A stretch of DNA of 43,043 nucleotides from a virus (IMGVR_UViG_3300043783_000045:1-43043), one strand, 5' to 3'; numbered from the stretch's first letter, positions 16,123 through 41,736 are shown. A program made the numbers and translations. The notes: generated from the letters alone by a model not told the origin.

Positions 16123-17163
16123 ATGGCTACGATTGGTAACGTCGCACTGACATATGCCGATTGGGCCAAGCGTTTGGATGATGGCTACAAAGTAGCACGT
16201 ATCATCGAACTCTTGTCTCAAACGAACGAAATCCTTGAGGACATGATGGTCGTCGAGGGCAACTTGCCCACCGGGCACAAGACCACCGTGCGCACCGGCC
16301 TCCCTCAGGCCACTTGGCGCCTGCTCAACCAAGGTGTTCCGAATGCTAAGTCCACGACCGCGCAGATCGTTGACACTTGCGGAAACCTCGAGACGTATTC
16401 CGTTATCGATAAGGATATCGCAGACCTCAACGGTAACACGGCTGAGTTTCGCCTTTCGGAGGTCAAGGCATTCCTCGAGGGGATGTCTCAGCAAGTGGCG
16501 TCCACGCTGATCTACGGGAACCAGTTTATCAACCCTGAGCGCTTTACCGGATTGGCCCCTCGATTCAGCACGTCGAACACCGCCAATTCACAGACCGCCA
16601 ACAACGTCCTCGTCGGCGGCGGCGCTGCCTCGACCAACACCTCGATCTGGCTGAAGGTTTGGGGCGACGATACCGCCCACGCGACCTTCCCAAAGGGCAA
16701 GATCACTGGCCTTCAGCACCGAGATATGGGTGAGTGGCCAGTCACTGACTCTTCGTCGAACACCTACCAAGCCTATCGGGATCACTTCAAGTGGGAGATC
16801 GGATATGTCCTCAGGGACTGGCGCTACGTCGTTCGCATCGCGAACATCGACATCACCCAACTTACCGGGGTGTCCGCTGCCAACCTCATCAACCTCCTCG
16901 TCCGTGCGATATACAAGCTCCCGACCCAGCCAGTATCAGCTGGTACGATTCAGACTAGCGATACTCCCGAAGTCCGAGCGAACATGGGCCGCTCGGTCAT
17001 CTACTGCAACCGTGTCGTCAGAACCTACCTCGACTTGCAGGCCATGAATAAGACGAATGTCCTGCTGAGAATCGAGGAGTTCGACGGTAAGCCGATCACC
17101 ACTTTCCGCGGCATCCCGGTCCGGACCTGTGACGCAATCTTGAACAATGAGGCCACGATATGA
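16123..17163 (+). CDS. Major capsid protein (346 aa), Bbp17-like
   Basis: Builds the icosahedral head. The start MATIGNVALTYADWAKRLDD, then LLSQTNEILEDMMVVEGN and LPTGHKTTVRTGLPQATWR, matches capsid proteins of the BPP-1 Bbp17 family. Length and position, between scaffold and cement genes, agree. AGGAAA lies upstream of ATG 16123. Three cysteines are present, unlike the even counts of the secreted cassette that follows. Confidence 0.92.
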   Translation: MATIGNVALTYADWAKRLDDGYKVARIIELLSQTNEILEDMMVVEGNLPTGHKTTVRTGLPQATWRLLNQGVPNAKSTTAQIVDTCGNLETYSVIDKDIADLNGNTAEFRLSEVKAFLEGMSQQVASTLIYGNQFINPERFTGLAPRFSTSNTANSQTANNVLVGGGAASTNTSIWLKVWGDDTAHATFPKGKITGLQHRDMGEWPVTDSSSNTYQAYRDHFKWEIGYVLRDWRYVVRIANIDITQLTGVSAANLINLLVRAIYKLPTQPVSAGTIQTSDTPEVRANMGRSVIYCNRVVRTYLDLQAMNKTNVLLRIEEFDGKPITTFRGIPVRTCDAILNNEATI

Positions 17164-17699
17164 TCCTCGACGCACTACTCCAGTTCGACGCCGCGAACAA
17201 CCTCGCGCAGGTCGCAGGGACGTATAACTCTACGAACGTTCTCGACCTCCATATCATCAACGGCGGCTTGCCGGTCCTCGCCAACCTTCAGGGTGCGCGG
17301 GATATTGGCATCGGCGATGACCCAGCGCTGAAGCTCTTGGTCCTCGTCACTACGACCTTCACCTCCGGTGGTGCAGGGACCCTGCAGGTCAACTTCCAAG
17401 GTGCCACTGACAACGGCTCGGGTGCCCCGGCTACCTTCTCGACCTACTACTCCACTCCAGCCTACGCCCTAGCCACCTTGGTCGCTGGTGCTCGGCTGAT
17501 GGACATGGATGTCCCTCGGCCGCCGGCTGGTGTTGCTGTCCCGCGGTTCTTGCGCCTCACTTACGTCGTGGGCACCGCAACCATGACTGCCGGTATCGTT
17601 GAATCCCTGATCGTCCTCGATCGCCACGATCAGATGTACCAGTCCACCTCCAACGCGGTCCTAGGTGGTTACCCGGCCGGCATTACGGTGGCGAACTAA
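17160..17699 (+). CDS. Capsid cement/decoration protein (179 aa), Bbp16-like
   Basis: MILDALLQFDAANNLAQVAG with a beta-sandwich body (TSGGAGTLQVNFQGATD, RFLRLTYVVG) matches the Bbp16-type protein that stabilises the BPP-1 capsid from outside. It has no cysteine and no signal peptide. ATGA overlap with the capsid gene and TAATG with the first secreted gene show that the secreted cassette is in the same operon. Confidence 0.85.
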   Translation: MILDALLQFDAANNLAQVAGTYNSTNVLDLHIINGGLPVLANLQGARDIGIGDDPALKLLVLVTTTFTSGGAGTLQVNFQGATDNGSGAPATFSTYYSTPAYALATLVAGARLMDMDVPRPPAGVAVPRFLRLTYVVGTATMTAGIVESLIVLDRHDQMYQSTSNAVLGGYPAGITVAN

Positions 17700-18352
17700 T
17701 GCGCCGCCTTCTCCTCGCGCTTGCGGCTTCCCTCGCGTTTGCGGGGGCGGCTTCAGCCCAAGTATCCTGCACTGGCGTTAGCGGTGTCAATTCTGTTCCG
17801 CAGATCGGAGTCAACTGCAACCAAGAGCCCACCGTTGCTACCTTTGGTGGTATGGGCTATGGTATCGTCCCCGCTGCTTCCGCAACCGACATTGCTTGCA
17901 TCACCGGCTCAGCTACGAAGGTGGTTCGGGTTCAGCAGGTAAAGGTTTCGGGTACCGCAGGCACTCTGGTTACTCTACCCGTTCTACTAAACAAGCACAC
18001 CATCGCCAACACTGGTGGCACTGCTGCCACTACCACCGCGTTGCCAGTGCCTGTGACCATGGACACCGGCGTTGCAACCACAGCCTCTGCAACCGCAACG
18101 CTGACCGCCTACACCGCCAATCCGACGGTAGACGCATCCGCGCTGCAACTCGATGCGCAGGCTGCGTCCTTCAACACCACCTCCGCTCTCGTCACTGGCT
18201 ACCCAGCCTTCTTCGACTACCGAGAGCGTAGCTTCTCTTCGGCTCCGGTGCTTCGTGGTGTAGCTCAGCAACTTTGCGTGAACCTTGGTGGCATATCTGT
18301 CTCCTCAGGGCTTCTCGCGGTTAGCTTCGTTTGGACGGAGGCTGCACAATGA
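17699..18352 (+). CDS. Secreted decoration-like protein 1 (217 aa)
   Basis: A clear Sec signal peptide (MRRLLLALAASLAFAGAASA, cut before Gln21). The mature part (ATDIACITGSATKVVRVQQV, then ANPTVDASALQLDA and LRGVAQQLCVNLGG) resembles beta-rich phage proteins that I know only without a signal, often annotated as hypothetical or structural. Four cysteines in the mature chain, an even number. TAATG junction with the cement gene. Export into the periplasm or beyond is inferred from the signal. Confidence 0.8.
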   Translation: MRRLLLALAASLAFAGAASAQVSCTGVSGVNSVPQIGVNCNQEPTVATFGGMGYGIVPAASATDIACITGSATKVVRVQQVKVSGTAGTLVTLPVLLNKHTIANTGGTAATTTALPVPVTMDTGVATTASATATLTAYTANPTVDASALQLDAQAASFNTTSALVTGYPAFFDYRERSFSSAPVLRGVAQQLCVNLGGISVSSGLLAVSFVWTEAAQ

Positions 18353-19443
18353 AAAAGCTCCTCCTTCTTTTCGCACTGCTTTTCGAAGCCCAACCCGCAC
18401 TCGCAGTCGACTCCGCAACCCTTGTAGGCAACGTTGCCTACACAATGCTGTCGACCGACTTTCGGATAACTCCGACCGTCGCGCTTACCGCTAACCGAAC
18501 TTGGACCTTGGTTTCAGCCTCCGCAACCTGCGTTGGGCAGACCTGTCCATCCACCACTCTTGACATCATCGACTCTCAAGGTAACGTTGGCGGTGCAAAC
18601 TCTTGCATCGTTATCGCTCCGCAGAGCGGTGAAACCATCAATGGCTCGACTTCCTCGGTTACTTTCTGTGCTACTTACGGTCGAGCTATTCTCTTTCCAA
18701 TGTCTGGGACGAACTGGTTTTACCAATCAGTTGCTCCTGGCCAGCTGCTTGGCACAACCACCAACGACAACGCAACAGCAGGCAATATTGGAGAGGTGAT
18801 AACTACCGGGTTGTGTCCTGGGTCAGCTGCGACCGCCACGGTCACAATCACTATCGCAGCCCCTGGCGTTGTCACTTGGACCGCGCACGGTATCACTGGT
18901 GCCTGTCCGGTTGTGTTTACCACTTCCGGTGCGCTGCCAACTGGTATCACCTCCGGCACAACCTACTATGTGGTTCCGGGATCGGTGACAGCTAACACTT
19001 TCACCATCGCAACCACTGTTGCAAACGCTCTTGCGGGCACCGCAATCACCACCTCTGGCTCACAGTCTGGCACACAGACAGGTACTGGTGGCGTTTCTCT
19101 TTCTACTGGCGCCGCTGCTACCGTAACTGGCCTCGCTCTCACCGCCGGTGATTGGGACTGCCGTGCGGTAAACTCCCACGTCCTCGGTGCGTCAACCTCT
19201 GTCACTGTTCTCGAGGCCTCAATCTCCACCGCCGCAACCACTATGGCTGCGCAAGGCTTGACCTCCTCGAACTATCACCAAGACGCAGCTACGGTTATGG
19301 GTGCTCTTGGACAGGACCTCACGATAGGTCCCTTCCGTATCTCCATGGCCGCAACAACCAACGAATTCCTAGTCGAATCCGATACCTTCACCGTCTCAAC
19401 CGATGTTGGCTTCGGCTCAATGACCTGTCGGAGGGCTCGCTAA
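18349..19443 (+). CDS. Secreted decoration-like protein 2 (364 aa)
   Basis: Signal peptide MKKLLLLFALLFEAQPALA, then a Thr/Ser-rich beta protein. Residues about 165-250 hold a phage surface module with PGVVTWTAHGITG, GTTYYVVPGSVTANTFTIAT and TSGSQSGTQTG; a related PGVVT..AHG module occurs in the nozzle at 28440-31556. The mature chain has eight cysteines. ATG 18349 overlaps the upstream stop (ATGA). The function is unknown; it is probably a surface or fibre-type protein that is exported. Confidence 0.8.
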   Translation: MKKLLLLFALLFEAQPALAVDSATLVGNVAYTMLSTDFRITPTVALTANRTWTLVSASATCVGQTCPSTTLDIIDSQGNVGGANSCIVIAPQSGETINGSTSSVTFCATYGRAILFPMSGTNWFYQSVAPGQLLGTTTNDNATAGNIGEVITTGLCPGSAATATVTITIAAPGVVTWTAHGITGACPVVFTTSGALPTGITSGTTYYVVPGSVTANTFTIATTVANALAGTAITTSGSQSGTQTGTGGVSLSTGAAATVTGLALTAGDWDCRAVNSHVLGASTSVTVLEASISTAATTMAAQGLTSSNYHQDAATVMGALGQDLTIGPFRISMAATTNEFLVESDTFTVSTDVGFGSMTCRRAR

Positions 19444-19844
19444 TGCGTAAGCTTGGGCTGGCGCTTTTTCTTACCCTTCTGGGCTTTGCGCCAGCCCAGG
19501 CTCAGCCTGTGATTCCACTTACACAGGCTTCAATCCCGATAACGATCTCAACTGCTACAACAACGCAGTTGGTTGCGTTAAAAGCTGGGCAGAGTATCTA
19601 CGTTACTTCAATAAGTATCATCGCTGCTGGCACAGGCAACATCCAACTCGTATATGGTACTGGCACCGCCTGTGCAACCGGTCAAGGGAATGTCACTGGT
19701 AACTATAGCCTCACCACTCAAGTTGGCTTCACTCTCGGTAACGGTTCCGGAGTTGTTCTTGTGGTCCCACAAGGTGCTGCCCTTTGCGCTGTCACCTCCG
19801 GTGCCGTTGGTATGCCAGGGAGCTTATCCTATGCGCAGTTTTAA
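19443..19844 (+). CDS. Secreted decoration-like protein 3 (133 aa)
   Basis: Signal peptide MRKLGLALFLTLLGFAPAQA. The mature part (TATTTQLVALKAGQSIYVTS, then IQLVYGTGTACATG and GSLSYAQF) is a small beta sandwich of a type seen in other environmental phage genomes. Two cysteines. TAATG junction with the upstream gene; the end overlaps the next gene by 14 bases. Confidence 0.8.
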   Translation: MRKLGLALFLTLLGFAPAQAQPVIPLTQASIPITISTATTTQLVALKAGQSIYVTSISIIAAGTGNIQLVYGTGTACATGQGNVTGNYSLTTQVGFTLGNGSGVVLVVPQGAALCAVTSGAVGMPGSLSYAQF

Positions 19845-20007
19845 AATCTTGCTCCTACTTCTCCTCGCCGCAAGTGGTCCTGCCTCAGCGCAGCTTACCC
19901 AGACCGGCGCTGGACAAGTTGCTGGAGGCGGTGGTCCTCCACCTACATGTAATGGTGTAATCGACTTCTCCGTTGGCTGCGTTCTACCAATGTTCGGAGG
20001 TCTGTGA
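19831..20007 (+). CDS. Secreted microprotein 4 (58 aa)
   Basis: A signal peptide (MRSFKILLLLLLAASGPASA) takes a third of the protein. The mature 38 residues contain GGGGPPP and the pair TCNGVIDFSVGCVLP, two cysteines ten apart, which could form one disulfide loop. The frame is open upstream, but ATG 19831 begins a perfect signal peptide. Function unknown. Confidence 0.75.
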   Translation: MRSFKILLLLLLAASGPASAQLTQTGAGQVAGGGGPPPTCNGVIDFSVGCVLPMFGGL

Positions 20008-20834
20008 TGCGCAAGATTGCACTAAGGCTTCTTAAGTATCTTTACGTTGGCTTGATCGCAGTCCTTCCGGTCTATGCGATTGCCAATAACTATCAAGCAA
20101 CTTCTGGCAGCGGCATCACATTTGGTTCGATCGTTGTTTCCGCTGTGAACTATGCACAGTTTATGCTTTGCGACTTGACCACACCTACCCAGTGCGCAGC
20201 AGTCTCAGCCGCAGGTGCAGTCAAGGTTGATGGTAGCGCCGTCACTCAGCCAGTAAGCGCGGCATCGCTCCCGCTCCCGACCGGGGCGGCAACCTCAGCC
20301 AATCAATCCTCACAGATCACGCAAGAGACGGCTACGGCTGGGGTTCTTGGCACAACGACAGACACCGCCGCCGCGAACGGTGCTGCCACGGCGACGTTGA
20401 ATGCCGTGGCAAAGGGCATCTTGACGGCGGCACAAGCGCAAATTCCTGCCGGCACGAACATCATCGGCAAAGTCGGCGTCGACCAGACGACGCCAGGAAC
20501 TACTAACAATGTCACGGTAGGTCCAGTAAATTCATCTCCAACAAACTTTTCAGCAACCACAAGCGGAACTCCAAGTACCGCCACTACACTTTTGGCGGCG
20601 AGTTCCACACATCAAAAAATTGTTATAAAGGTGGAAGGCGCGACGGCTGTTTGTTTCTCTCAGTTCGGCACGGCTGTCATAGGCGCGACGGGGACATGGT
20701 GTCTTAAGGGCGCCAGCACTGCTAACGCCGGGGACGGCGGATCATACGTGACGCCAGGAGGGATGACTGAACCTGGCGCAATATCTATGATTAGCACCGG
20801 AACGTCGATTCTCGTTACGGGATGGTGGCAATGA
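20007..20834 (+). CDS. Secreted or membrane-anchored protein 5 (275 aa)
   Basis: A basic-hydrophobic N-terminus (MRKIALRLLKYLYVGLIAVLP, then VYAIA) acts as a signal peptide or anchor. The middle holds LPLPTGAATSANQSSQIT and PAGTNIIGKVGVDQTTPGTT, linker-like motifs common in phage fibre and baseplate proteins. The C-terminal 90 residues (HQKIVIKVEGATAVCFSQFG, WCLKG) look like a beta domain. Four cysteines. ATG 20007 shares a base with the upstream stop; a GTG one codon earlier is possible. Confidence 0.75.
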   Translation: MRKIALRLLKYLYVGLIAVLPVYAIANNYQATSGSGITFGSIVVSAVNYAQFMLCDLTTPTQCAAVSAAGAVKVDGSAVTQPVSAASLPLPTGAATSANQSSQITQETATAGVLGTTTDTAAANGAATATLNAVAKGILTAAQAQIPAGTNIIGKVGVDQTTPGTTNNVTVGPVNSSPTNFSATTSGTPSTATTLLAASSTHQKIVIKVEGATAVCFSQFGTAVIGATGTWCLKGASTANAGDGGSYVTPGGMTEPGAISMISTGTSILVTGWWQ

Positions 20835-21307
20835 GCAAGTTCTTATGCGCTCTGCTGTCATTGTGGCTTGCTGCCGTTCCGGCTTCTGCTCAGTTCGGCG
20901 GCAGCGGGGGCTCAACTACCGTCAACAACACGGCCGCTGGTGCAACGCGCGTCCTCTGCTCGATCCGAGCTGCTAATTTCAACATCACGACGGACCAGGC
21001 CTGCACAATTCCGGCTGGCGTCACGGCCTGGGTTCCTGCTTCGATCATCGCCACAAACTGCTCTGGCACGTTCACGCTGGCGGCTGGTGGCGTGTACCCT
21101 GCGACCAGCAAAGGCGGCACGGCTTTGGTTGCGGCGGCGCAGATCTATACCGCGCTGACCGGCGCTACGGTTGTGCTCGGTCTCACGTTGGCGGCTAACG
21201 TCGCCACGACGAGACAGACCATCAACACGGTTTACCTGTCTCTGACAACCGGAACCGGTAGTGCCGCAACGTGTGATTTCTACGTCATCGGGAGCGATCT
21301 CACATGA
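20831..21307 (+). CDS. Secreted protein 6 (158 aa)
   Basis: Signal peptide MSKFLCALLSLWLAAVPASA, then a glycine stretch (QFGGSGGSTT) and a beta-rich domain (ITTDQACTIPAGVTAWVPAS). Four cysteines in the mature chain. ATGA junctions at both ends. No named family. Confidence 0.8.
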   Translation: MSKFLCALLSLWLAAVPASAQFGGSGGSTTVNNTAAGATRVLCSIRAANFNITTDQACTIPAGVTAWVPASIIATNCSGTFTLAAGGVYPATSKGGTALVAAAQIYTALTGATVVLGLTLAANVATTRQTINTVYLSLTTGTGSAATCDFYVIGSDLT

Positions 21308-22062
21308 TCGCGCGGGTTACTCTTGCGCTGTTCTTGACGGCTTGCCTTGCCGCAGTGGGGTTGAACGCACCTTCGCGTGCGCAGTTCAATGGATGCTCTG
21401 CCGGATTTTGCAATCTATCGGGCGCGGCTGGAGGCGCTGCCGTCGCCGTAGATGTTTGCGGAACGAATACCAGATTGGGGTCGAGCGGAACCTCCTTCAA
21501 TTATACTGGTCTTACGATTACTGGAGGCCTGACGAATAGCGCTGTGGTCGCTGTTTTGGGCTTCAATGTAAGCACCATAACAGGATTGACTGCGACGTGG
21601 AACGGAGTCGCCATGTCGCAGATAGTTACACATAATACAGCGACGGCCGGTGTTGGGCGTGTAGATTTGTGGGGGCTCATTGCGCCGGCATCCGGGAATC
21701 AGACCCTTGCTCTATCGTGGACGGGAAGCTCAAACGTTACTGTTGATGCGTGCTCATGGAGTAATGTAAAACAAACTGGCGGCGCCACGAGCTTTCCCAA
21801 TTCAGCAGGCGCGCAAGGGACAACAGCAACATCTACGATAACGATTACAAGTGCATCAGGTCATGCTGTCATGGCAGGACATGTTGCTGGATCGCCAAGT
21901 CCAACTATTACCGCAGTCAACAATACGCAGGTGTTTATAGATAATGTCTTTAATGTCGCCACCGCAGGTAACCGCGCGGCCGGAAGTGGAAGCGTGACTA
22001 TGACTTCAACTCTATCGTCTGGATTTAATTGGGGCGTTGTTGGGACCGACATTTCGAACTGA
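21304..22062 (+). CDS. Secreted protein 7 (252 aa)
   Basis: Signal peptide of about 27 residues (MIARVTLALFLTACLAAVGL, then NAPSRA). The mature part is a Thr/Ser/Gly-rich beta sandwich (SSVTVDACSW-type strands, ATSTITITSASGHAVMAGHV), a pattern seen in phage and bacterial adhesin-like domains. Four cysteines in the mature chain. ATGA overlap with the upstream gene; the next gene starts two bases after its stop. Confidence 0.75.
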   Translation: MIARVTLALFLTACLAAVGLNAPSRAQFNGCSAGFCNLSGAAGGAAVAVDVCGTNTRLGSSGTSFNYTGLTITGGLTNSAVVAVLGFNVSTITGLTATWNGVAMSQIVTHNTATAGVGRVDLWGLIAPASGNQTLALSWTGSSNVTVDACSWSNVKQTGGATSFPNSAGAQGTTATSTITITSASGHAVMAGHVAGSPSPTITAVNNTQVFIDNVFNVATAGNRAAGSGSVTMTSTLSSGFNWGVVGTDISN

Positions 22063-22064
22063 AA

Positions 22065-23723
22065 ATGATAAAATCAATATCTCTTCTTTTATTTCTTGTT
22101 ACCATCGGCGCTGCTTCAGCAGCAATTCACGGTGCCGTACCAACTAACTCGTCTCTCCGTAATCCTACAGCGCAGGACGATTCCACGCGCGGGAACGTTG
22201 TTAACGAGTTATGGTTGAACACATCTACAGGGACGTTTTTTACAGCCAGCGGCGTTTCGCCAGGAGCGGCAGTTTGGGCAAATAGCGGAACACCGTCGTC
22301 TCTTCCGTGCGATGCCGTTGCGAGCGTGACTGTTTGCTATGGGCTGTTTTCTCTCACGTCTTCATGGTCCAACGGGAATCTGTTCGATATTCAAAGAAGC
22401 ACGGACAGCACGACAACAACTATTGCCGCAGTCGGTGGGAAGGCCGACATGGCATCATTAAATTCGTTTCTTGCCGGTGGGGCGGGTGGCGTAATAACAA
22501 AGTGGTACGATCAGAGCGGAAACGGCAACGATTGTATTCAGGCGACGGCGGCGAATGCGTTGGCCTTGCGTAATATCAATGGCGTTCTGTCGCTCGTTGG
22601 AGATTATCAGGATACTCCTATCGGCGTCACCGCGTTTATGCGCTCTTGCGCACTTCCCAGCGTGACGTTTGGGACCTCCAATTCAGCGTTTTCAGTTACG
22701 CAAGTAAGTGCGACACACTATGCCAATTTCATATGGGAGCTTGGCACATCGACCGCTGGCTACATGGGACTTTACGGCAACGCGCTAAACACTTGGCGCG
22801 TTAACAACAACGCTACAAGCTTTACGAACAGCGAAACCGAACAACAGGTGTGGAGCGTTGTTGCCAGCCCATCGACCGGAACGTTTGGCGTTGGAGAGAA
22901 TATTGCAACCGCAGCCAACCAAGCGCTCAATGCGGCTCCAACGGGCGGCTCTATTGGGCTGAGTTTTCAGCATTCTTCGACGAGTGAGATATTTGATGGT
23001 CAAATGTATGCCTTTGCCGCGTGGAACGGGCTGGCGATGAGTGGCGCGCAAAGCCTTGCGGTTAGAAAGGCATTTTATCAAGCCTACAAAATCGCGCCGC
23101 AGATGCGCAACGATCAGATTGTGTTTGCAGGAGATAGCTGGCTTTCGGCAAATGGAGGTCAGTTCCAATCACCAAATGGGCCTTTCGGATTAAGCGCTGA
23201 GGCGCAGGTTACGCCGCTTTTGAACAGGCCCGTGACGCAGATTAATTTAGCCTTGTCTGGGGAAAAGCTCGCGACAATGCTGAGTGAATATTCAAGTCTA
23301 GTGGCTCCGCTTTTCGATTCTTCGCGCAGGAACAACATTCTAATATTTGACGGTGGAGCAAATGACATTTTTACAGCTGGCCATACCACCGCTCAAACAT
23401 TTGCCGATCTACAATCGTATTGCAATGCCGCTATCGCGACGGGCTGGCAGGCTTATTATATAACCTCGATTGCATTCCCAGGTGGGAACACTTGGGACAC
23501 ATCCCTGAACTCACTTGTGCGTGGAGGGCCGCTTTCATGCACGGCTCTCATAGACATAGGGGCAAATCCACACTTTGATCCTTCCATTTCTCCGGCTGTC
23601 AACACTAACCAAACATATTACTCGACGGACGATGAGCATCCCAACGCCTTTGGATATAGCATATGGGCAATGGCTCCGTACATATCGACGGCGATCAACG
23701 GTGTTCTTGGTGTCGGTCCGTGA
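22065..23723 (+). CDS. Secreted GDSL/SGNH esterase with ConA-like domain (552 aa)
   Basis: Signal peptide MIKSISLLLFLVTIGAASA. Residues about 75-340 look like a carbohydrate-binding ConA-like/LamG or arabinofuranosidase-type domain (RSTDSTTTTIAAVGGKAD, then KWYDQSGNGNDCIQAT). The C-terminal 200 residues form an SGNH hydrolase: block I FAGDSW (Ser358), block II LALSGEK, block III GGANDIF (Asn433), and the Asp-His pair in DDEHP (Asp522, His525). The likely role is removal of acyl groups from a surface polysaccharide, as in phage spikes. Six cysteines. The signal peptide is unusual for a spike. Confidence 0.85.
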   Translation: MIKSISLLLFLVTIGAASAAIHGAVPTNSSLRNPTAQDDSTRGNVVNELWLNTSTGTFFTASGVSPGAAVWANSGTPSSLPCDAVASVTVCYGLFSLTSSWSNGNLFDIQRSTDSTTTTIAAVGGKADMASLNSFLAGGAGGVITKWYDQSGNGNDCIQATAANALALRNINGVLSLVGDYQDTPIGVTAFMRSCALPSVTFGTSNSAFSVTQVSATHYANFIWELGTSTAGYMGLYGNALNTWRVNNNATSFTNSETEQQVWSVVASPSTGTFGVGENIATAANQALNAAPTGGSIGLSFQHSSTSEIFDGQMYAFAAWNGLAMSGAQSLAVRKAFYQAYKIAPQMRNDQIVFAGDSWLSANGGQFQSPNGPFGLSAEAQVTPLLNRPVTQINLALSGEKLATMLSEYSSLVAPLFDSSRRNNILIFDGGANDIFTAGHTTAQTFADLQSYCNAAIATGWQAYYITSIAFPGGNTWDTSLNSLVRGGPLSCTALIDIGANPHFDPSISPAVNTNQTYYSTDDEHPNAFGYSIWAMAPYISTAINGVLGVGP

Positions 23724-23766
23724 ACGATAACAGCCCGGTAGGGCTCAACAAAGTAGGATAAAACAC

Positions 23767-24291
23767 ATGGCTAGATGGAAATTGACGGAACCTCACTATT
23801 TGGCGGTTGAAGGAATCAAGTGGGAATACTCCGAGGTCGACCGTGTAACTGGTCGCCCGAAGCGAACTCAGTTCCCTGTACCCTTGCACCTCGATCCCAA
23901 TATCGAATCGGATTGGACCCACCGCTATGATGCTTGGTCAGGAGACATCATAGTCTCCGATGGCCACAATAACGATCCAAAGGACCTGATTTACACTGGT
24001 CCAGTCACGCCCGGTATGCTCCCTCTCGACGACGAGGCGAAGGCCATCACGGCAAAGGCTGCGAAGGATAAGTGGCGCCCAACGCAGGGGCTTGATCCGG
24101 AGTCGCAGAACGAGTCCTACACGAACAAGCTGCTCTCCGGTTTCATCGATCAGATGACCATGGTTCAAACCAACGCACAGCAGGCTCCGCAAATCGCTGG
24201 GCTTGAAGAGATGCTGAAGTCGATGACCGCCGTCATGACAATGCAAACTGAGCTTCTTGCGAAACTCGCTAATTCTGCGCGGAGAGTGTAG
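23767..24291 (+). CDS. Conserved phage hypothetical protein (174 aa)
   Basis: No signal peptide and no cysteine. The N-terminal half (MARWKLTEPHYLAVEGIKWE, then GPVTPGMLPLDDEAKAI) resembles unnamed phage proteins with a small beta domain; the C-terminus is a long helix (IAGLEEMLKSMTAVMTMQTE). It follows the secreted esterase after 43 bases holding only a short hairpin and a ribosome site (AGGA). Probably a minor structural or assembly protein. Confidence 0.8.
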   Translation: MARWKLTEPHYLAVEGIKWEYSEVDRVTGRPKRTQFPVPLHLDPNIESDWTHRYDAWSGDIIVSDGHNNDPKDLIYTGPVTPGMLPLDDEAKAITAKAAKDKWRPTQGLDPESQNESYTNKLLSGFIDQMTMVQTNAQQAPQIAGLEEMLKSMTAVMTMQTELLAKLANSARRV

Positions 24292-24663
24292 GTGCCTGAA
24301 GAACGAACCGAAGCGACCGAACTAGCCGAAATCCGTCGGGAACTCAAAACCATCCGTGAGATGATGACAACTGTTGTGTTCGCGATTCGGGAAGCTGAAA
24401 GCGAAGTCCCTGAGAAGATGCGGCGGTTTGTGATGTACATGCACGATATTCACGACATCTCTTACATGTACACCGAGATGGGTCACGAGCCGCCGGAATG
24501 GATCAAGCGTGAAATGGAGCGGTGCGATGATCGCTTTCGGCAGCTTCTCACCGAGTCGCACTCAGATGGCGGTGCGTTTGAAAAGGTCAGGCGCACTATG
24601 GCAGAGGACCCACTTAATCGGTGGGACCACACTCGACTTTTAACCAAGCCTAAGGAGGCGTAA
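24292..24663 (+). CDS. Hypothetical helical protein (123 aa)
   Basis: A coiled-coil-like N-terminus (LAEIRRELKTIREMMTTVVF) is followed by a His/Met-rich stretch (MYMHDIHDISYMYTEMGH). No family was recognised. GTG 24292 directly follows the upstream TAG, with GGAGAG in the upstream tail codons as ribosome site. Confidence 0.75.
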   Translation: MPEERTEATELAEIRRELKTIREMMTTVVFAIREAESEVPEKMRRFVMYMHDIHDISYMYTEMGHEPPEWIKREMERCDDRFRQLLTESHSDGGAFEKVRRTMAEDPLNRWDHTRLLTKPKEA

Positions 24664-24897
24664 ATGAAACAAGGAAGTGGAAGAAATAGTATGGCTGGAC
24701 AGAAACGTGAACCGATTGCGCACGCGATTAACCCTGCGGGCGTGAGCCAGATTGGCAGCGCGATGGGGAACCACGCTACGGAAGTCGGTAAGACCCTTCA
24801 CGGTGCGTCAGTGTCGATGGACCGTGGTCGTGGGTTTGAGGCGCCCAAGGATGCAGGGCGAACTGTGCATCATAACGGTAGCCAAGGAAAACGATGA
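24664..24897 (+). CDS. Hypothetical basic protein (77 aa)
   Basis: Glycine-, His- and Lys-rich, probably disordered (AGQKREPIAHAINPAGVSQI). No family was recognised. AAGGAGG lies just before ATG 24664, which directly follows the upstream stop. Confidence 0.7.
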   Translation: MKQGSGRNSMAGQKREPIAHAINPAGVSQIGSAMGNHATEVGKTLHGASVSMDRGRGFEAPKDAGRTVHHNGSQGKR

Positions 24898-25196
24898 TGA
24901 ACTGGGACAAGATAGAACAGCTATTGAATATCATCAGCAAGGCTTCGGAGCACGGACCGAATCTTTCACCGGTCGTTCAGTTTGCGCAGCAAGAGCTCTC
25001 GACGCACGTGAAAGAAGCGCAAATGCAGGCGGCTGAAGCTAAGGTGAAAAAGGATAAAGAAGAAGCTGACGCTGCGGCGAAGTTGAAGGCCGAATCTCCT
25101 GAAGAAGTCCAGCGCGACCGAGAGGATGCTTTTGATCAAGCTCAGGGGATTGAAGAGGCTGACCCCGCTGAAACCTCAACCGTAAGGAGGGTTTAA
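24894..25196 (+). CDS. Hypothetical helical protein (100 aa)
   Basis: A folded-looking start (WDKIEQLLNIISKASEHG), then a Lys/Glu/Ala-rich helix (AKVKKDKEEADAAAKLKA) and an acidic tail. No family was recognised. Two adjacent ATGs at 24894 and 24897 overlap the upstream stop. Confidence 0.75.
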   Translation: MMNWDKIEQLLNIISKASEHGPNLSPVVQFAQQELSTHVKEAQMQAAEAKVKKDKEEADAAAKLKAESPEEVQRDREDAFDQAQGIEEADPAETSTVRRV

Positions 25197-25393
25197 TGTC
25201 CAAGGACATCCTTTCAATGTACGGTCCCGATTCGCCGTCTAACCAAATGCCCCGCGCAACTTCCGGCGGTGTGAAGGAAGCAAAGAAGCTGGCTTACGAT
25301 CCACCGAAGGGTCCAACCACCTTCTCTCATGAAGGTCCCGGGCTTGCGGATCATACCAACCACGGTTGTTGCGGTACGCAGGGCAAGTACTGA
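25196..25393 (+). CDS. Hypothetical protein with Cys/His tail (65 aa)
   Basis: A small, loosely structured protein ending ADHTNHGCCGTQGKY. The H-T-N-H-G-C-C cluster might bind metal. No family was recognised. TAATG junction upstream with an AAGGAGG site; TGATG downstream. Confidence 0.7.
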   Translation: MSKDILSMYGPDSPSNQMPRATSGGVKEAKKLAYDPPKGPTTFSHEGPGLADHTNHGCCGTQGKY

Positions 25394-25824
25394 TGCCCTC
25401 GCAAAAGGACTTGGATCAGGGGGGTACATCTCGAGCGTGGGTGCGAACCTACCTTGGTCCAAGCGTGGGCTGGACTTGGGTGCCTTCAAGTAATGTACTA
25501 CCGATCACGGCTGCTGGCACCTACGTCCTTGATCCGAGTACCTCTCTTGTGACCGTGAGCGTAGCGGGGGCGGTGATTATCGTTCTCCCTTCTGCAATCG
25601 ACCCTTCCGTTCCTGCCGGAGTTCAGCCCGGTCTATTCGCAAACAACCCTATCACGATTGTGGACATCGGTGGCAACGCCACTGCGCACCCAATCACAAT
25701 CCAGCCTGCTTCAGGTTCTGAAAACATCATGAACCTCCCGTCGATCAGCCTCTCCGTCAACTACGGCGGGTACTCGCTCCTTCCGAACTCCGCCTTAAAG
25801 GGATGGAATTCCATATCACCATGA
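25393..25824 (+). CDS. Fibre/decoration-like protein without signal (143 aa)
   Basis: A small beta protein (WVRTYLGPSVGWTWVPSS, then NPITIVDIGGNATAHPITIQ and YGGYSLLPNS). The PITI..G.. pattern is common in phage head fibre and tail fibre domains. No cysteine and no signal peptide, in contrast to the spike gene that overlaps it by four bases. It may be the virion-bound partner for a surface protein. Confidence 0.75.
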   Translation: MPSQKDLDQGGTSRAWVRTYLGPSVGWTWVPSSNVLPITAAGTYVLDPSTSLVTVSVAGAVIIVLPSAIDPSVPAGVQPGLFANNPITIVDIGGNATAHPITIQPASGSENIMNLPSISLSVNYGGYSLLPNSALKGWNSISP

Positions 25825-27119
25825 AAAAGATCATCCTCGCACTTGCACTTGCGCTTGCTCCATCGTTGGCCTTTGGACAATGTAACGGTGTGTTCCCGGC
25901 CAACACTCTTTGTGGTAACCTCAGTGCGAGCCCTGCGCCACCCGCAGCATTTAGCGCTTCCGGCACGGTCGTTGGTCCAGGGTCGTCGGTCGTCAATGAC
26001 ATTGCGACCTATGCCAATACTGGTGGTACGCAGATTAAGGATAGCGGAGTTTTAATCTCAAACGTTCCACTTTTAGGAAGCAACAACACCTATACAGGCA
26101 CCAATACTTTCAACAACACCGTCTCCGGTACCGGCGTTACATCACTCTTCGCTTCCCCGCCAGCTATCGGAGGAACAGCTGCCGCGGCTGGAAGCTTTAC
26201 AACCCTGTCATCTAGTGGCAATGCAGTTTTCGGTTCAGGTAAGCCCTGGATCGACATTACCTCTGGCGCGCAAGGCTGTACAGCTGCCGACCCAACCGCT
26301 GTTTCGGATTCCACTATGGCTATTCAATGCTATTTAAACTATATGAACTCCACTTTTGGTGGAGGTATAGTTTTTGTCCCGCCTGGACAGTATCTTGTAT
26401 CTGCTGGTGGAGTGACAGTAAAAGGCGGGGTACAGATTCATGGAACCGGGGTTAGCGGTTCCATTATCAAAACTAACACCGATAGCAAAGTCATCACTTT
26501 CGACAGCGCTACATGTAATAAAGGAACCGCGTTAGAAAACACTTGGATTCAAGGCTTTCAAAGCGCAGCGGCTACCCAGGACGCGGTAACCATTGGCGCG
26601 AACTGCCCTGTGATACTTCGTGATAATTACATTTGGGGCGGTAAGAGTGGCCTAACCACCGCAGGGGTGGATGGAAGGTACACAAACAACTTCATCTGCG
26701 GTGCGTCTGCATCCGGCGCTAATGTAAATTCGACTGGGGCAAACTTCTACACTGACGACAAGATCGACACTTGTGGATTCACTGTGTCCGTCGGGTTCTC
26801 TCAAGGGGTTGCTTGTTGCAGCCTCGGCGTGGCAGAGAACCATTTTACTAATACCGACTTTTCAGGGGCTTTCACGGATAGTGTAGCTATCAATGACGGT
26901 GGTGGGGCTACTGCGCTCACAACTTTTACTGGCGGCATTTTCAGCGGCCCAATTGTTATCACCGCCGCAAAGGCATCGATGTTTTCGGCGGCGGAGTTTG
27001 GGTCAACCATGCTTAGTGTTAATGGCCCGATTAATATCGTAGGCAGCTTTGCCTTCTCCCCTACTACGGTTACAGGTGGTACACGTAGCTGTGCCGGTAA
27101 CACCAATATTACGTGCTAA
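25821..27119 (+). CDS. Secreted beta-helix spike-like protein (432 aa)
   Basis: Signal peptide MKKIILALALALAPSLAFG, then a linker with repeated GTNTFNNTVSG-type motifs and a pectate-lyase-like right-handed beta helix from about residue 160 (MNSTFGGGIVFVPPGQYLVS, VQIHGTGVSG, then repeated short strands). This fold is typical of tail spikes that bind or cut surface glycans. Twelve cysteines, an even and unusually high number for a phage spike, fit oxidation after export. No catalytic residues can be assigned. ATG 25821 overlaps the upstream stop (ATGA). Confidence 0.85.
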   Translation: MKKIILALALALAPSLAFGQCNGVFPANTLCGNLSASPAPPAAFSASGTVVGPGSSVVNDIATYANTGGTQIKDSGVLISNVPLLGSNNTYTGTNTFNNTVSGTGVTSLFASPPAIGGTAAAAGSFTTLSSSGNAVFGSGKPWIDITSGAQGCTAADPTAVSDSTMAIQCYLNYMNSTFGGGIVFVPPGQYLVSAGGVTVKGGVQIHGTGVSGSIIKTNTDSKVITFDSATCNKGTALENTWIQGFQSAAATQDAVTIGANCPVILRDNYIWGGKSGLTTAGVDGRYTNNFICGASASGANVNSTGANFYTDDKIDTCGFTVSVGFSQGVACCSLGVAENHFTNTDFSGAFTDSVAINDGGGATALTTFTGGIFSGPIVITAAKASMFSAAEFGSTMLSVNGPINIVGSFAFSPTTVTGGTRSCAGNTNITC

Positions 27120-27122: not shown

Positions 27123-28265
27123 ATGACCACCAACCTCGATATCGGTAACCGTGCGCTGCAGGTGATGGGTAGCCGGACCAATATGTCCTTGGCCGAGTTC
27201 AATGCACAGTCGTCGAACGAAGCCATCCAGTGCCAGCTGATCATGTTCAAGCTCCGCGATGAGCTCAACCGAATGGCGCCGTGGGACTGTGTAACGAAGT
27301 GGGGGAGCCTGACCTACATAACTACCGCACCGGGCAATCCTGAACAGCCAAACTCTGGCGCACCGCTGTGGCAGCCTGGACAGCCACCGCCTCCGTGGAG
27401 CTATGAGTTCCAATATCCCGTGGACTGCCTACGCGCAAGGATGATTATCCCGCAATTTACTCAGCAGGCTGGCGGCGTTCCGATCTATCCATCTAACACT
27501 GTTACCGGCGCTGGACAGACTGGCTGGACTGGGCCTGCCATTAAGTTCAAGGTCGCAACGGATAGCTTCTTTGGAGTGACTGCAGCCGTGCCTGCGGTTG
27601 GTGGAACTGGGTATGCGATTGGGGATATTATCACTCTTACGCAGCCTAGCTATACCTTTATTCAGAACTCTGCACCAGTCGGTCAGCCTGCGTCGAACTT
27701 CTCCTACACCCTTGATGCAGGAGCCCCTGCGCAGCTTCAGGTCCTGACCGCGCCTGGAGGAGTAATCGGCACGGTTGCGGTCGTGAACCAAATCATGGAT
27801 GCGGCCACACCGATCGGTGGGAGCTACTTCTCCGTTCCGACCAATCCGGTTGCGCAGGGATCGACCTCTGGCGTCGGTGTGGGTGCCACGTTCAACCTCA
27901 CCTTTGGTTCTCAGTCTCCTCAGCGTGTGATCCTTTGCAACATCACCCAGGCAATCCTATGCTACAACACTCAGATCACCGACCCCAATATAATGGACCC
28001 ACTTTTCCAGGACGCCTGGATTCACATCCTGGCAGCGCGGCTCAGTCCGCAGCTGAATGGTGAAGTGGCTCGAGCCAACCAAAACATCGCCCTCGCCAAC
28101 GCTGCAATTATGGAAGCACGAAAGGCGGATGGGAATGAGGGGATTACAGTGAACGACGTTACGCCAGACTTCCTACGAACTAGAGGTGGCTTTGGCGTGG
28201 GCCCAAACTGGGAATATAGTCCGAATATGGATTTCGATTGGGGCAGCACGTACTCCCCTTACTAA
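27123..28265 (+). CDS. Tail adaptor (T7 gp11-like) with inserted beta domain (380 aa)
   Basis: The ring that links portal and nozzle. Residues 5-60 (LDIGNRALQVMGSRTNMSLA, then CQLIMFKLRDELNRMAPWDC) and the C-terminal LFQDAWIHILAARLSPQLNG helix match gp11-type adaptors, which are usually near 200 residues. Between about 152 and 268 a Gly/Thr-rich beta module is inserted (GGTGYAIGDIITLTQ, then GVGVGATFNLTFG), of a type seen in phage surface proteins. Five cysteines, no signal peptide. Confidence 0.85.
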   Translation: MTTNLDIGNRALQVMGSRTNMSLAEFNAQSSNEAIQCQLIMFKLRDELNRMAPWDCVTKWGSLTYITTAPGNPEQPNSGAPLWQPGQPPPPWSYEFQYPVDCLRARMIIPQFTQQAGGVPIYPSNTVTGAGQTGWTGPAIKFKVATDSFFGVTAAVPAVGGTGYAIGDIITLTQPSYTFIQNSAPVGQPASNFSYTLDAGAPAQLQVLTAPGGVIGTVAVVNQIMDAATPIGGSYFSVPTNPVAQGSTSGVGVGATFNLTFGSQSPQRVILCNITQAILCYNTQITDPNIMDPLFQDAWIHILAARLSPQLNGEVARANQNIALANAAIMEARKADGNEGITVNDVTPDFLRTRGGFGVGPNWEYSPNMDFDWGSTYSPY

Positions 28266-37300: not shown

Positions 37301-40058
37301 GGCGCTGGGTTCGAAGTTCGGCGGGGAACTTTCTATCTCCAAGTCTGATATCAAGGCTTGGGTGAAAAAGCAGTTCTCAGAGATGCCGATCTCGATGCAT
37401 CGTGTGGATGACTACCTTGCCGCAGCTGGTAGGTCTGGTCGAGGGGCTGAGCAAGCCTTGCTTGATGGCGATGGCCGGGAGGCGTTTAAATTCAAGCAGC
37501 AGCAGTACATCTCAATGCAAATGGCCAACGAAGCCAAGGCCTACGAAAAGGCCCGAGCCAGCTTCGACAAGCTCGCAAAGCGGCTTGCGAAACGGGAGAT
37601 CACGGGGCTGCCGCAGGACTATGTAGCGCATATCCGAGATCAACTCCTCCGCGCACAGCTGCCGATTGGCCGGTCGGTGCAGACCTTAGGGGAGGATGTA
37701 AGGGAGGCTGGGGACCTACTGCAATTTGCCCGCCGCGCAAGTGAGGGTTCGCAGGTTCCGATATTCCTTCCGGATTGGATGTATGGCGATTGGAATAAGA
37801 AACTGGACACTATGTCCGCAGGGGAGTTCAGCGAGTACTCGAAGGGGATTAGGCAGCTTTATAACTTCGGACGGGATGAAAGGAAGGTCGAGGTTGCTGG
37901 GGATAAGATTGATCTAGGAGAGTTTCTTGATAAGGCGAAGGATCAGCTAGCGTTGCAAGGGACTAAAGACATACCTTATAACCCATCCAAGGTTGGCAAG
38001 CTCATTGGCCTTGCCAAGAATATCTTCTACGGTAAGCTGATTCAAGCTGAGACTATTTTCAACCGATGGGATATGGGAAATCCCCGCGGCATTTTCAACG
38101 AAAACTTCATGTACCGTGCAGCAGCGTCAGCCAATGACCTCTCAGCGCGGATCAAACGGTATAGTGAGAAGGTGCAGACGGCGGGGCAGATGATTAAGGG
38201 GCTCGATCTTACTAAGCCCTTACCGAACCTGCTAAAGAAAGTCACCGATGGTCTTCCGGTTAACATGACCGTGGAGAATGCGCTACGGATCATCACTGAT
38301 ATGGGGAACCTTTCTAATAAAGATAAGTTCACTCGAGGTTGGAAAGTCGATCCGCAGGTTCTTGAAGGCTGGCTTAAAGCCAACACAACAAAGGAAATGT
38401 GGGACTTTGCTCAGGCGCTAGGGGATGTGCACGAGGAGATGTTCAGTGAGCTAAAGGACATGATCCACTCCATCTCCGGCGTGACTCCAGACCGCGTTCC
38501 GCTCGCCCCGTTCACCGACCCACACGGAGTAGAGCGCAGGGGTTGGTACTCGCCGATGATCTATGATCAGGTGCAGATGGGGACTAGTCGTCGGCTGGCT
38601 GGGTTGCCCCAGATCGACCCGAACGAGATCACAGGGCTGATGGACACTGGGTACTTTAAGTCCACCACCGCGACCGGCGCTGAAATCCAGCGCACCGGAT
38701 ACGCAGCGCCGACCGACCTGACTTTGTCTCGGTTGCCTCAAAGGATGACTCAAATCCTCTACGACACCGCATTCCGTCCGTTCGTGATTAACTTCGGGAA
38801 GGTAATGAGGGATCAAGGATTTCAGAACGCTATCACGAAGCACTCCGGGGTGGAAGTCCGGGATATGATGCGAGATTGGCTTAATGATATCATCGGCGCT
38901 GGGAAAGGGGCCTCGACCTCGTCGGACCTTGCAACCGGGCAGGTGGTGGAATACTTCCGTCGGAATATCATTGGGCAGTTAATAGGTTGGAATCTGCACA
39001 CGGTTGAGAAGCACGGCTTGTCAGCGCTGGTTAACTCTATGGCTGAAGTCGGCGTAGGTAACTTCGCTCGAGAGTTTCAAAACATGATCCTCTCTCCCAA
39101 CGCTGGGAAGGATTGGGACTTTGTTCTCAGCAAAAGCGAAGAACTTCAGCGCCGACGTCAGCACTGGACTGAATCCCTCGGTGGCCAGTTCGAGGCCGTC
39201 CGCCTCGGTGGTCAGGGCTGGCGAGATTGGATGCTGGAGAAGGGCTCGTCGATCGTTGCGTGGTCCGACATGGCCTCGGCAGCCCCTTCGTGGATGGCTG
39301 AGTACAAAACGCAGATGGAGAACCTCGCAAAGGAACGTCCAAATGACCTACCATCCGACTACGAAGGCGTCGCCATTTCTCTCGCGGACCGTGCGGTTCG
39401 GCGAGCCCACGGTTCAACTGCCATCACTTCCCGCCCTGGGGGTATGCGTGGAGGGGCCTTTGCAAGGACCTTTATGTCCCTCTACGGGTTCTTCAACCAA
39501 ATGCTCCAACGAAACTACGAAGTGATGTGGAGGACGAAGTACGCAGCGGAGAACTTTAAGCAAGGGGACTATGAAAAAGGGTTAGATAACCTCAAGCGCG
39601 CTGGGGTGCTTTTTGCAACCGCTACTCTTTGGCCTGCGCTGGTTGAAGAAATGGTCACGCCGTATACGAATGAGGAAAAGGATTCTTGGGGAAAGTGGAC
39701 GGGGAAGACACTAGCGCTGGGAGTGTCTGCGACAGTGCCCTTCGTTCGCGAGTTCGTCCATGGTTGGATTAACAACTTCGAAACGGGAGCGGGGATACTT
39801 GATACAGGCTGGAAGGAACTGGCGTCGACCTTCTCCGACGTGCGAAAGGGTACAAAAATGATGGACGCTGAGCATGGAGGGAAGACCATCAAGGATTTCA
39901 ATGGCCTTGTCGGAGTGGCTACCGGTGTCACTAACAACGAAGTCGGAAACATCATGAAAACCATCTGGGACAGCACGCACCGATCCAAGGAAACTCCAAA
40001 GGGCGTTAAGGAAACTGCAAAGGACCTAATCACTGGGCACGCAAAGGAGCGGAAATGA
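34281..40058 (+). CDS. Giant ejection protein with HExxH metallopeptidase domain (1925 aa)
   Basis: By position and size it is the T7 gp16-like large internal protein ejected with the DNA. It is not a transglycosylase by any motif I see. Instead residues 640-720 hold a zincin-type site: HIVMHEASHAATVG with His654, Glu655 and His658, and a possible third ligand in KEFIAEG (Glu705 or Glu709). Helical regions follow, and the C-terminal 700 residues (WDFAQALGDVHEEM, GWYSPMIYDQ, HGSTAITSRPGGMRGGAF) resemble large polyvalent phage proteins. Start: GTG 34281, five bases after GGAGG; GTG 34275 lies in that site. Confidence 0.85.
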   Translation: MADPLYPNPSDDPAGFIVSQQRAAQSSALQGLDANADDGARAIELGKATGTDPSLVYGNLEQFEQQHKASLTSQLLQSNQFLRDYANSHPMAGVVSNDDWGQLDEVSHRVTGLFGPHYGGLLSAPADAVEAGVRGFYQAFTSEGKLGQQFVRDEDAQFASDHPILYSNLVQTAQLLGAPIEILNRTISGVIAGGGAAVESVAKSVGASDDTARQMKEDVASMADVAMQMEMTGQVPHTPEPGAGAVAKQQLAMDVYRAARPFVENGQKPPVGLHEVIDKVYEAQTKQDVKDLDDLTKEAQSSSTRERAPELFEDFVKSHGDASIGVSAEAIRALYGDKLPTPDDNLLGSVPDLAKQLESAEQFGGDVQIPLSTWLAHVEPDVAKALHDDIRVRPGGMTLNETKLEVPERPAPIDSVDAIRRPAGLDPMAAPGQMRLQRVPTEEGDRGHTFDIQDPDGKRIGGATFDEFDDGKVLRVSSIAAGTAEGLPGFLGQRQLTGLLRQLQREFPNAETLEGWRVSGAREQPGMVSIPLRPTPSQLTDFMRSGFEKQIVRGPSGETIGIQPLYSTTVGQSITSDVLSKATDSPVMKAFGEKIHTLTKDVPIHVISQEDIRKVYGGDVQGFHQLYSDGQSNIFLPDDIGYWDPKKVLHIVMHEASHAATVGAIESYPEIKSKIRSLMNEVRKIDDVDEDILRSHAYAFKNEKEFIAEGQSKENFQEALKKVPVSPELMKELGTPATNAWEALKNIVKEIWERITGGKVPQNALDALFKLSDEIFEAQKDVQARGKVGTDFAPPKQLELPGLTRIEDREAFEKAAAIGMTVKQYRQYQELIEKRESQDMELFRAQAERKERARQTAEWKAEEARAREEAKTSLINRPDIAADNLLREGTLFGDKLKGRPRLNSDLLSAEQKSGLPDDYHKSGGVNPDDAAQMFGYHSADAMLQGIKQLHADRGELGPREHINNLAEKITQDHMTREFGNLEQNILEELKDHVISPSQLDILHEELVALGSKFGGELSISKSDIKAWVKKQFSEMPISMHRVDDYLAAAGRSGRGAEQALLDGDGREAFKFKQQQYISMQMANEAKAYEKARASFDKLAKRLAKREITGLPQDYVAHIRDQLLRAQLPIGRSVQTLGEDVREAGDLLQFARRASEGSQVPIFLPDWMYGDWNKKLDTMSAGEFSEYSKGIRQLYNFGRDERKVEVAGDKIDLGEFLDKAKDQLALQGTKDIPYNPSKVGKLIGLAKNIFYGKLIQAETIFNRWDMGNPRGIFNENFMYRAAASANDLSARIKRYSEKVQTAGQMIKGLDLTKPLPNLLKKVTDGLPVNMTVENALRIITDMGNLSNKDKFTRGWKVDPQVLEGWLKANTTKEMWDFAQALGDVHEEMFSELKDMIHSISGVTPDRVPLAPFTDPHGVERRGWYSPMIYDQVQMGTSRRLAGLPQIDPNEITGLMDTGYFKSTTATGAEIQRTGYAAPTDLTLSRLPQRMTQILYDTAFRPFVINFGKVMRDQGFQNAITKHSGVEVRDMMRDWLNDIIGAGKGASTSSDLATGQVVEYFRRNIIGQLIGWNLHTVEKHGLSALVNSMAEVGVGNFAREFQNMILSPNAGKDWDFVLSKSEELQRRRQHWTESLGGQFEAVRLGGQGWRDWMLEKGSSIVAWSDMASAAPSWMAEYKTQMENLAKERPNDLPSDYEGVAISLADRAVRRAHGSTAITSRPGGMRGGAFARTFMSLYGFFNQMLQRNYEVMWRTKYAAENFKQGDYEKGLDNLKRAGVLFATATLWPALVEEMVTPYTNEEKDSWGKWTGKTLALGVSATVPFVREFVHGWINNFETGAGILDTGWKELASTFSDVRKGTKMMDAEHGGKTIKDFNGLVGVATGVTNNEVGNIMKTIWDSTHRSKETPKGVKETAKDLITGHAKERK

Positions 40059-41013: not shown

Positions 41014-41736
41014 ATGAAGAAGATCATCTTTGCGTTGCTCGCAACTACCTCACTCGCTAGCGCAGCGGACCTGAAGCTGCCTGTCAAGGCCGCGTACTCC
41101 GCTCCGATCTGCACTGCTGGAGTACCGATGACCCCGACTATGGCGGCAGTGTCCCCGTCGTGCTCGGGGTTCTATGCTGGGTTTGGGATCGAGGGGTTGG
41201 GCTCCAACCTCGATATCCTTGGCTCGGGGATCAACAACTCAGTCTTCGCTGGTGGCGGGGTGGTTAAAGCTACTGGTGGATATCAGTTCTGGAATGGTCA
41301 GTTCTTCTTCGCCGGAGAGGGAAACGTCGGGATCAATATGACCAACTCCGGCCTCGGTGCGCAGGTTGGTACCGGGAAAAACTGGGATGCGAGCATCATC
41401 GCCAAGGCAGGCGTAGGTCTCAGCAACATCATCGGTATTGGCCAGCAGGGAACGGTCGGCACTGGCACTCCGTCGCAGGGGATTAACCTCGCTGTGATCC
41501 CGGGAACCTCGTTGATGTCTCCCTACGTTGCGATTGGAGAGAGCTTCAAGCAGGGCAACCAGGGCTGGACGATGGGTGCGGGGACTGAGTTCATCCTCGC
41601 TCAGGGGTGGAATATTGATGTCTACTACCACCATATCACCTGGAACGGTACGCAAACTACCGTCATTCCCGGCGCAGCTATCACGTCAACCACTCCCGAG
41701 AACCGGGTGGGCGTGGCTTTCTTGAAGATGTTCTAA
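41014..41736 (+). CDS. Omp25-like outer-membrane beta-barrel protein (240 aa)
   Basis: Signal peptide MKKIIFALLATTSLASA, then ADLKLPVKAAYSAP, the typical start of Rhizobiales Omp25/RopB-type porins, and CSGFYAGFGIEGLGSN. The rest is alternating beta strands (KATGGYQFWNGQFFFAGEGN) ending in a final strand with terminal Phe (RVGVAFLKMF), the signature for BAM insertion. Two cysteines. AAGGAAAG lies before the ATG. It closes the late operon, with a terminator following. Likely acquired from a host; possible roles are exclusion of rivals or envelope change, both inferred. Confidence 0.85.
   Translation: MKKIIFALLATTSLASAADLKLPVKAAYSAPICTAGVPMTPTMAAVSPSCSGFYAGFGIEGLGSNLDILGSGINNSVFAGGGVVKATGGYQFWNGQFFFAGEGNVGINMTNSGLGAQVGTGKNWDASIIAKAGVGLSNIIGIGQQGTVGTGTPSQGINLAVIPGTSLMSPYVAIGESFKQGNQGWTMGAGTEFILAQGWNIDVYYHHITWNGTQTTVIPGAAITSTTPENRVGVAFLKMF

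Follow-up and report, generated by a model that had tools for sequence, protein, structure and literature searches.

The IMG/VR virus record IMGVR_UViG_3300043783_000045 (positions 1–43043; this whole stretch of 43,043 bases is called the window here) carries, between its cement gene and its tail tube gene, a cassette of nine genes whose products begin with predicted Sec signal peptides. By gene content the window is a contig of a phiV10/epsilon15-like podovirus. Matches in the PHROG database to portal (phrog_332), major capsid protein (phrog_212), cement (phrog_427) and tail (phrog_394) families follow each other in this order, and the major capsid protein is 47–53% identical over its full length to those of its best matches among cultured phages, such as phiV10, Tyrion, Jess A and HU1. 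Genes for podovirus head, tail and ejection proteins are present, as is a lysozyme-like gene at 40055, an endolysin encoded separately from the cassette. This gene set implies that virion assembly should be cytoplasmic and end with lysis.

All genes described below are on the plus strand. The cassette starts at the end of the cement gene (17160..17699), a homologue of the cement/decoration gene of phiV10-type phages whose product has no signal and no cysteine. The first exported protein, of 217 amino acids (17699..18352), is predicted to be a jelly-roll protein and belongs to a large family, a member of which directly adjoins the cement gene in minimal genomes such as L135; its signal MRRLLLALAASLAFAGAASA is followed by QVSC and its mature chain has 4 cysteines. 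Next come a 364-amino-acid protein (18349..19443; MKKLLLLFALLFEAQPALA before VDS, 8 cysteines), a beta-sandwich protein of 133 amino acids (19443..19844; signal ending in APAQA before QPV, 2 cysteines), a small protein of 58 amino acids (19831..20007; MRSFKILLLLLLAASGPASA before QLTQ, 2 cysteines) and a 275-amino-acid protein with a long n-region (20007..20834; VLPVYAIA before NNY, 4 cysteines). Proteins of 158 amino acids (20831..21307; VPASA before QFG, 4 cysteines), 252 amino acids (21304..22062; SRA before QFNGCSAGFC, 4 cysteines) and 552 amino acids (22065..23723; MIKSISLLLFLVTIGAASA before AIHG, 6 cysteines) complete the main block. Part of the domain encoded at 21304 recurs without a signal in one relative (L035), and the 22065 product has a weak GDSL/SGNH hydrolase C-terminal half and a weak match to a virion structural PHROG. 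These eight genes overlap by 1–14 nucleotides, except for a 2-nucleotide gap before 22065. The ninth gene (25821..27119), which overlaps the gene before it by 4 nucleotides, encodes a tail-spike-like protein of 432 amino acids with a pectate-lyase beta-helix, in which the signal MKKIILALALALAPSLAFG precedes the mature start QCNGVFPANTLCGN and the mature chain has 12 cysteines. Beyond GDSL and pectate-lyase, PHROG and Pfam scans of the nine proteins found little.

Re-reading the genes bore out the arrangement described in an earlier note on this DNA, eight consecutive coupled genes and one further gene with basic-hydrophobic, AxA-type signals; with the data from relatives given below, the case is firmer than that note could make it. 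Its coordinates hold overall, with three starts shifted (the fourth gene to 19831, the fifth to 20004/20007 and the eighth to 22065). The mature cysteine counts given above, together with the 2 cysteines of an outer-membrane protein (OMP) encoded at 41014, are identical to those it listed, all ten being even, and our recount for the signal-less neighbours (major capsid protein 3, cement 0, and 5 in the tail tube protein, which it had called an adaptor) also agrees. The tail tube gene (27123..28265, phrog_394), whose product has no signal, forms the right border of the region. Signal-less genes within it include 23767..24291 (product starting MARWKL), which is kept in relatives and similar to a gene located after cement in cultured relatives, and 25393..25824, which encodes a 143-amino-acid protein without cysteine and overlaps the start of 25821.

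Signals were called with a heuristic rule of our own, which scores the n-region, the h-region and the residues at -3/-1; at the threshold used, the share called was 0% for shuffled proteins, 2.2% when the first 45 residues of a protein were shuffled and 0.4% for antisense open reading frames (ORFs). Eighty relatives were fetched from the 549 capsid-protein relatives in IMG/VR. In these, 146 of 407 ORFs from cement to tail tube were called, versus 7 of 510 upstream, up to the capsid gene, and none of 63 at the cement position. Cassette-type genes recur in related genomes: a signal gene was present at most 3 kb after the capsid gene in all 44 clade contigs that have at least 3 kb there. The n-, h- and c-regions with their AxA site are kept across family members, as in signals of the Sec/signal peptidase I type, and the signal stays intact where the remaining protein diverges to less than 40% identity. 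In 17 of 32 unrelated families the residue at +1 is Q, which the scoring rule does not reward at that position. In some exported spikes (L135:9488-11563, L228, L257) the signal-like N-terminus (MFNIITILAGLLISPAQA, MIQILALLLWLGVAQA) contains no basic residue and would be missed by predictors that require a positive n-region. As the signals are known from sequence-based prediction, it could be argued that the proteins are not exported, the hydrophobic N-termini being uncleaved virion or membrane anchors and the even cysteine numbers either coincidental or due to bonds formed in air after release. The cleavage-site statistics (AxA and +1 Q) and the retention of the signal in strongly diverged members speak against this explanation, and so does the distribution of cysteines.

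Among cysteine-containing proteins of the same region in the relatives, the cysteine count is even in 134 of 137 exported proteins versus 85 of 192 non-exported ones. Because the contigs are related, parity was recounted with each group of detectably homologous proteins represented once, which gave about 26.9 even of 28.9 unrelated families with a signal versus 28.9 of 67.9 without. A composition effect was considered as the source of even parity and is countered by the non-exported proteins of the same genomes. Cysteines are also conserved and lost in pairs, in families 1, 3, 5 and A4. In family 1 (the 19443 family) 26 members have all four cysteines and 5 lack exactly the first two; in family 3, 15 members have four, 7 have none of the four, 3 have the second pair only and 2 the first pair only. 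Families 1, 3 and 5 contain paired patterns only (CCCC, --CC, CC--, ----), the single apparent exception, in family 5, being a two-column alignment shift. The parity rule is not absolute: it is weaker among the largest exported spikes, as the count there is even in only 58 of 67.

The domain of the 17699 protein allows exported and non-exported versions to be compared. A scan with this family reached other phage types, and 42 of the 56 homologues scored were called signal-bearing. Clade members have their two core cysteines in ATDI-x-C and QQLCVNL, while the signal-bearing homologues in L171, L174, L180, L184, L185 and L186 have exactly two domain cysteines placed elsewhere (for example VSCTQTTAG with LGCMA). 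Twelve signal-less homologues have no cysteine (six), one (three) or two (three). Exported versions of the domain thus appear to have gained a cysteine pair more than once, and these lineage-specific pairs are, as we read them, the strongest evidence for export followed by oxidation. Cysteine pairing confined to signal-bearing proteins, and pairs differently placed among exported versions of one domain, make the uncleaved-anchor explanation very improbable. Conversely, the signals, parity, the paired gain and loss of cysteines and the comparison of 17699 homologues together make export and disulfide formation very likely.

What these proteins are is suggested by their domains. An AlphaFold model of the 19443 protein (pLDDT, the predicted local distance difference test score, 83.6) is a beta-sandwich; the viral proteins closest to it are short ones of phages, some of them named as virion proteins, and its best overlap by TM-score among the PDB matches listed is with the KHP40 cement protein (0.54–0.57). 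The model of the 17699 protein (pLDDT 84.9) is a jelly-roll-like sandwich. For 44 large exported proteins, all named PHROG matches are to tail or virion families (tail protein, tail spike, tail fibre, tail collar, pre-neck appendage, virion structural protein), and Pfam matches include Phage Tail Collar (9e-14, assigned to the set of 44 and not to one individual protein), Pect-lyase, beta-helix, Peptidase_S74 and others. The large exported proteins thus have the domain architecture of conventional tail spikes. Relatives' cassettes also contain polytopic membrane proteins (L022:12515-13651 and L083:12240-13130, e.g. cluster 16), which might modify the envelope; L083 is a contig of a Terriglobia metagenome-assembled genome and is possibly misbinned.

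Many large exported proteins share one of two constant mature N-termini, type A (QCNGvFPaNTvCGN, including the window's 25821 product) and type B (QNxTCPTRPxGDsTNACASTxFV). Scans with both detected type A in 35 contigs and type B in 68, and the two together in none of these 103 contigs, 22 of which are at least 38 kb long. In the 15 loci that extend to a tail tube gene, type A and type B alike are located roughly 1 kb ahead of that gene. The C-termini that follow fall into 23 homology groups. Conventional spikes carry no signal, whereas 88 of the 92 type A or B spike ORFs read scored as signal-bearing; of the remaining four, three look signal-like on inspection and one is truncated at the end of its locus. 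Tail spikes behave in this way, with an N-terminus that stays constant, a C-terminus that varies and alleles that exclude each other at a given locus. Cassette-type proteins thus look like virion parts, both in their domains and in their constant mature N-termini on variable C-termini. A signal-less tail-fibre-like protein of Arthronema virus TR020 (L203:5521-6792) holds TGDNSTKVASTAYV, which resembles the type B segment GDNSNACASTAFV minus its cysteines (a weak database match, E = 3).

The same observations bear on the main rival explanation, that the proteins are exported and never enter the virion but work in the periplasm, at the cell surface or beyond the cell. Tail-type domains would then have been recruited as effectors, the beta-helix and GDSL proteins trimming the envelope or exopolysaccharide for progeny escape, and the small jelly-roll proteins masking receptors or excluding other phages. 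Sec does take proteins out of the compartment in which virions are built, the cytoplasm; OMPs (41014, L195:2722), a known type of phage surface protein, are encoded by these phages too; ordinary signal-less fibres also occur in some relatives; and, in a cultured phage discussed below, an exported pair lies between tail genes and the endolysin. Against secreted effectors stand the Collar and Peptidase_S74 domains, which are tail modules, the constant N-termini and exclusive alleles near the tail tube gene, which fit a docking slot, and contig G002, in which all large receptor-binding candidates seen carry signals. We regard this explanation as possible and hold it only tentatively. With constant N-termini, spike alleles that exclude each other and, in at least one relative, no receptor-binding candidate seen without a signal, attachment to virions at lysis seems at least as likely as free secretion.

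The OMP (41014..41736) is a predicted outer-membrane beta-barrel protein (signal MKKIIFALLATTSLASA before ADL) in the lysis region, outside the cassette. Its start, ADLKLPVKA (an ADLPVK-type N-terminus), resembles what we take to be the N-termini of alphaproteobacterial OMPs. A second OMP with a signal peptide was seen at L195:2722-3426, and the OMPs of these phages possibly serve superinfection exclusion. In the early region of another contig (L193:2788-3408), a 206-amino-acid protein without signal has 23 cysteines in CxxC-like repeats (NCKNCWNCQRCSDCSGC).

Outside the clade, cassette-type genes are found in L171, another podovirus (capsid phrog_3437), in L184/L185, a phage whose genes include a head-maturation protease and ones of major-tail type, and in L186, a contig whose capsid is phrog_264. 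When cultured phages were searched at the nucleotide and protein level, 17699, 22065 and 25821 gave no match. The 19443 protein did match, at 61% identity over 94 amino acids, a signal-bearing protein of phages Yong-M4-211 and Ssp-JY42, in which the homologue is followed by a signal-bearing protein of 786 residues with 10 cysteines; this exported pair (UPT53194.1 and UPT53193.1), located between tail genes and endolysin, was deposited as hypothetical proteins. In both phages, which are recorded as Synechococcus phages, the pair (L202:8860-11647 in Yong-M4-211; L204 in Ssp-JY42) lies near an integrase gene, and given the 61% identity to a soil phage's protein the recorded host may deserve a check. 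The cassette was lacking in prophages of Acetobacteraceae. Neither the 17699 family nor the OMP was found in 385 and 190 genomes from the class to which L105 (titled Agrobacterium) belongs, a set with no positive control.

This distribution bears on another explanation, that these are lysogenic-conversion or moron genes, encoding host-type surface proteins that benefit the lysogen and lying in the late operon by chance. Exported phage morons such as Lom, Cor and Bor are well known, and one homologue, near a head gene, is in a contig whose number suggests an isolate genome (IMGVR_UViG_2902699553_000002, L186). The cassette genes, however, are overlapping genes inside a structural operon and not stand-alone ones, they occur in every clade contig tested, they encode tail-type domains, the 17699 family went unmatched in the 385 genomes just mentioned, and no integrase gene was noticed in the window. 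We consider the moron explanation improbable.

We favour, at even chances, a two-compartment maturation of the virion with docking at lysis. Late in infection, the operon would make proteins of the decoration and tail-spike types that carry cleavable Sec signals; these proteins would cross the inner membrane and be cut at AxA sites, typically before Q; their paired cysteines would be oxidised in the periplasm, probably by host DsbA/DsbB. Capsids and tails would assemble in the cytoplasm as usual for the family. When holin and endolysin open the cell, the particles would meet the periplasmic stock, which would dock through its constant N-terminal segments onto the tail or the capsid. The phage would thereby gain disulfide-hardened fibres and spikes, beyond what a reducing cytoplasm can make. 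The steps from export to oxidation carry the high confidence given above, and for cytoplasmic assembly followed by docking the balance is about level. The earlier note had proposed that virion-like surface proteins are sent out of the infected cell; Sec passage and disulfides remain very probable and many of the proteins are of virion type (tail spike, fibre, collar and jelly-roll domains), but free release from the cell does not follow, as Sec alone reaches the periplasm only.

Several observations weigh against docking at lysis or against the evidence on which it is built. The signal calls come from the heuristic rule and not from SignalP, and 9 of 67 large exported spikes have an odd cysteine count. 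The PDB matches of the 17699 model are weak only, and the Peptidase_S74 match falls slightly under the Pfam cut-off (21.6 versus 22 bits). The exclusivity of types A and B comes from pattern scans, which can miss copies, and the relatives' contigs may be incomplete. The cassette is lacking in the cultured relatives phiV10, HU1 and Jess A. Ordinary signal-less fibre-like genes are present in relatives L035, L066, L068 and L071, so that exported spikes need not be the sole receptor-binding proteins. Finally, we know of no precedent in tailed phages for post-lysis docking of exported spikes.

The cassette shares features with several known systems. Its large proteins are like the tail spikes and fibres of tailed phages (P22, phi29 and phiV10 types; PHROG tail spike, tail fibre and pre-neck appendage families) in their beta-helix/pectate-lyase, Collar, Peptidase_S74 and fibre domains, their constant N- and variable C-terminus and their place by the tail genes of the late operon. 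Ordinary spikes, however, fold in the cytoplasm, while here a cleavable-type Sec signal directly precedes the constant segment and cysteines are mostly even. With cement and decoration proteins (KHP40 cement, phage head decoration) the cassette proteins may share a jelly-roll/beta-sandwich fold, and their genes lie directly after the phage's cement gene; they differ by their signal peptide and conserved cysteine pairs, and the likeness is a fold match only (TM-score 0.54–0.57). Coat and adsorption proteins of the filamentous Inoviridae, such as pIII, belong to the virion, carry signal peptides and acquire their disulfides in the periplasm. Inoviridae nevertheless assemble at the membrane and are extruded, and the present gene set is that of a podovirus. 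Exported morons and exclusion proteins (Lom, Cor, Llp, Bor), to which the 41014 OMP may belong, are likewise phage-encoded Sec substrates, but they are usually single genes outside the structural operon, in contrast with a multi-gene tail/decoration-type block within it. Exported lysis proteins (SAR endolysins, Rz1-type spanins, Sec-dependent endolysins) are also late proteins that use Sec, some of them disulfide-controlled; they differ from the cassette proteins, in which no peptidoglycan-degrading domain was found.

The earlier note knew of no description of such a system, and our search of the open-licence literature turned up none for exported tail or decoration proteins of tailed phages; subscription papers and preprints were outside its scope, so that novelty is not proven. 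The closest reports concern a signal-bearing endolysin and unexplained signal peptides in Bacteroides phages. In the textbook view tailed phages assemble in the cytoplasm, and tail proteins are not expected in the oxidising periplasm; to our knowledge, no tailed virus is known to export and disulfide-lock tail- or shell-type proteins.

The phage analysed here appears to belong to a group of soil bacterial viruses with export-tagged tail- or shell-type proteins. Taken together, the present podovirus clade, a second podovirus, a phage whose head genes are of lambda/HK97 type and a prophage-like contig raise the prospect, to which we give slightly less than even credence, that several unrelated lineages of tailed phages independently route receptor-binding and decoration proteins through Sec, form their disulfides in the periplasm and finish their virions at lysis. 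As homologues exist in the cultured phages Yong-M4-211 and Ssp-JY42, the question of virion attachment is testable now. If the proteins join the virion, assembly of tailed phages would extend to a second compartment, Sec and Dsb would count among the host factors for completing virions, and such phages could be found by looking for signal peptides on tail proteins. Should the proteins stay off the virion, this would be a group secretion of tail-derived proteins, likewise undescribed as far as we found. Either way, a signal peptide on a tail-type gene is a simple annotation signal that has been overlooked so far.

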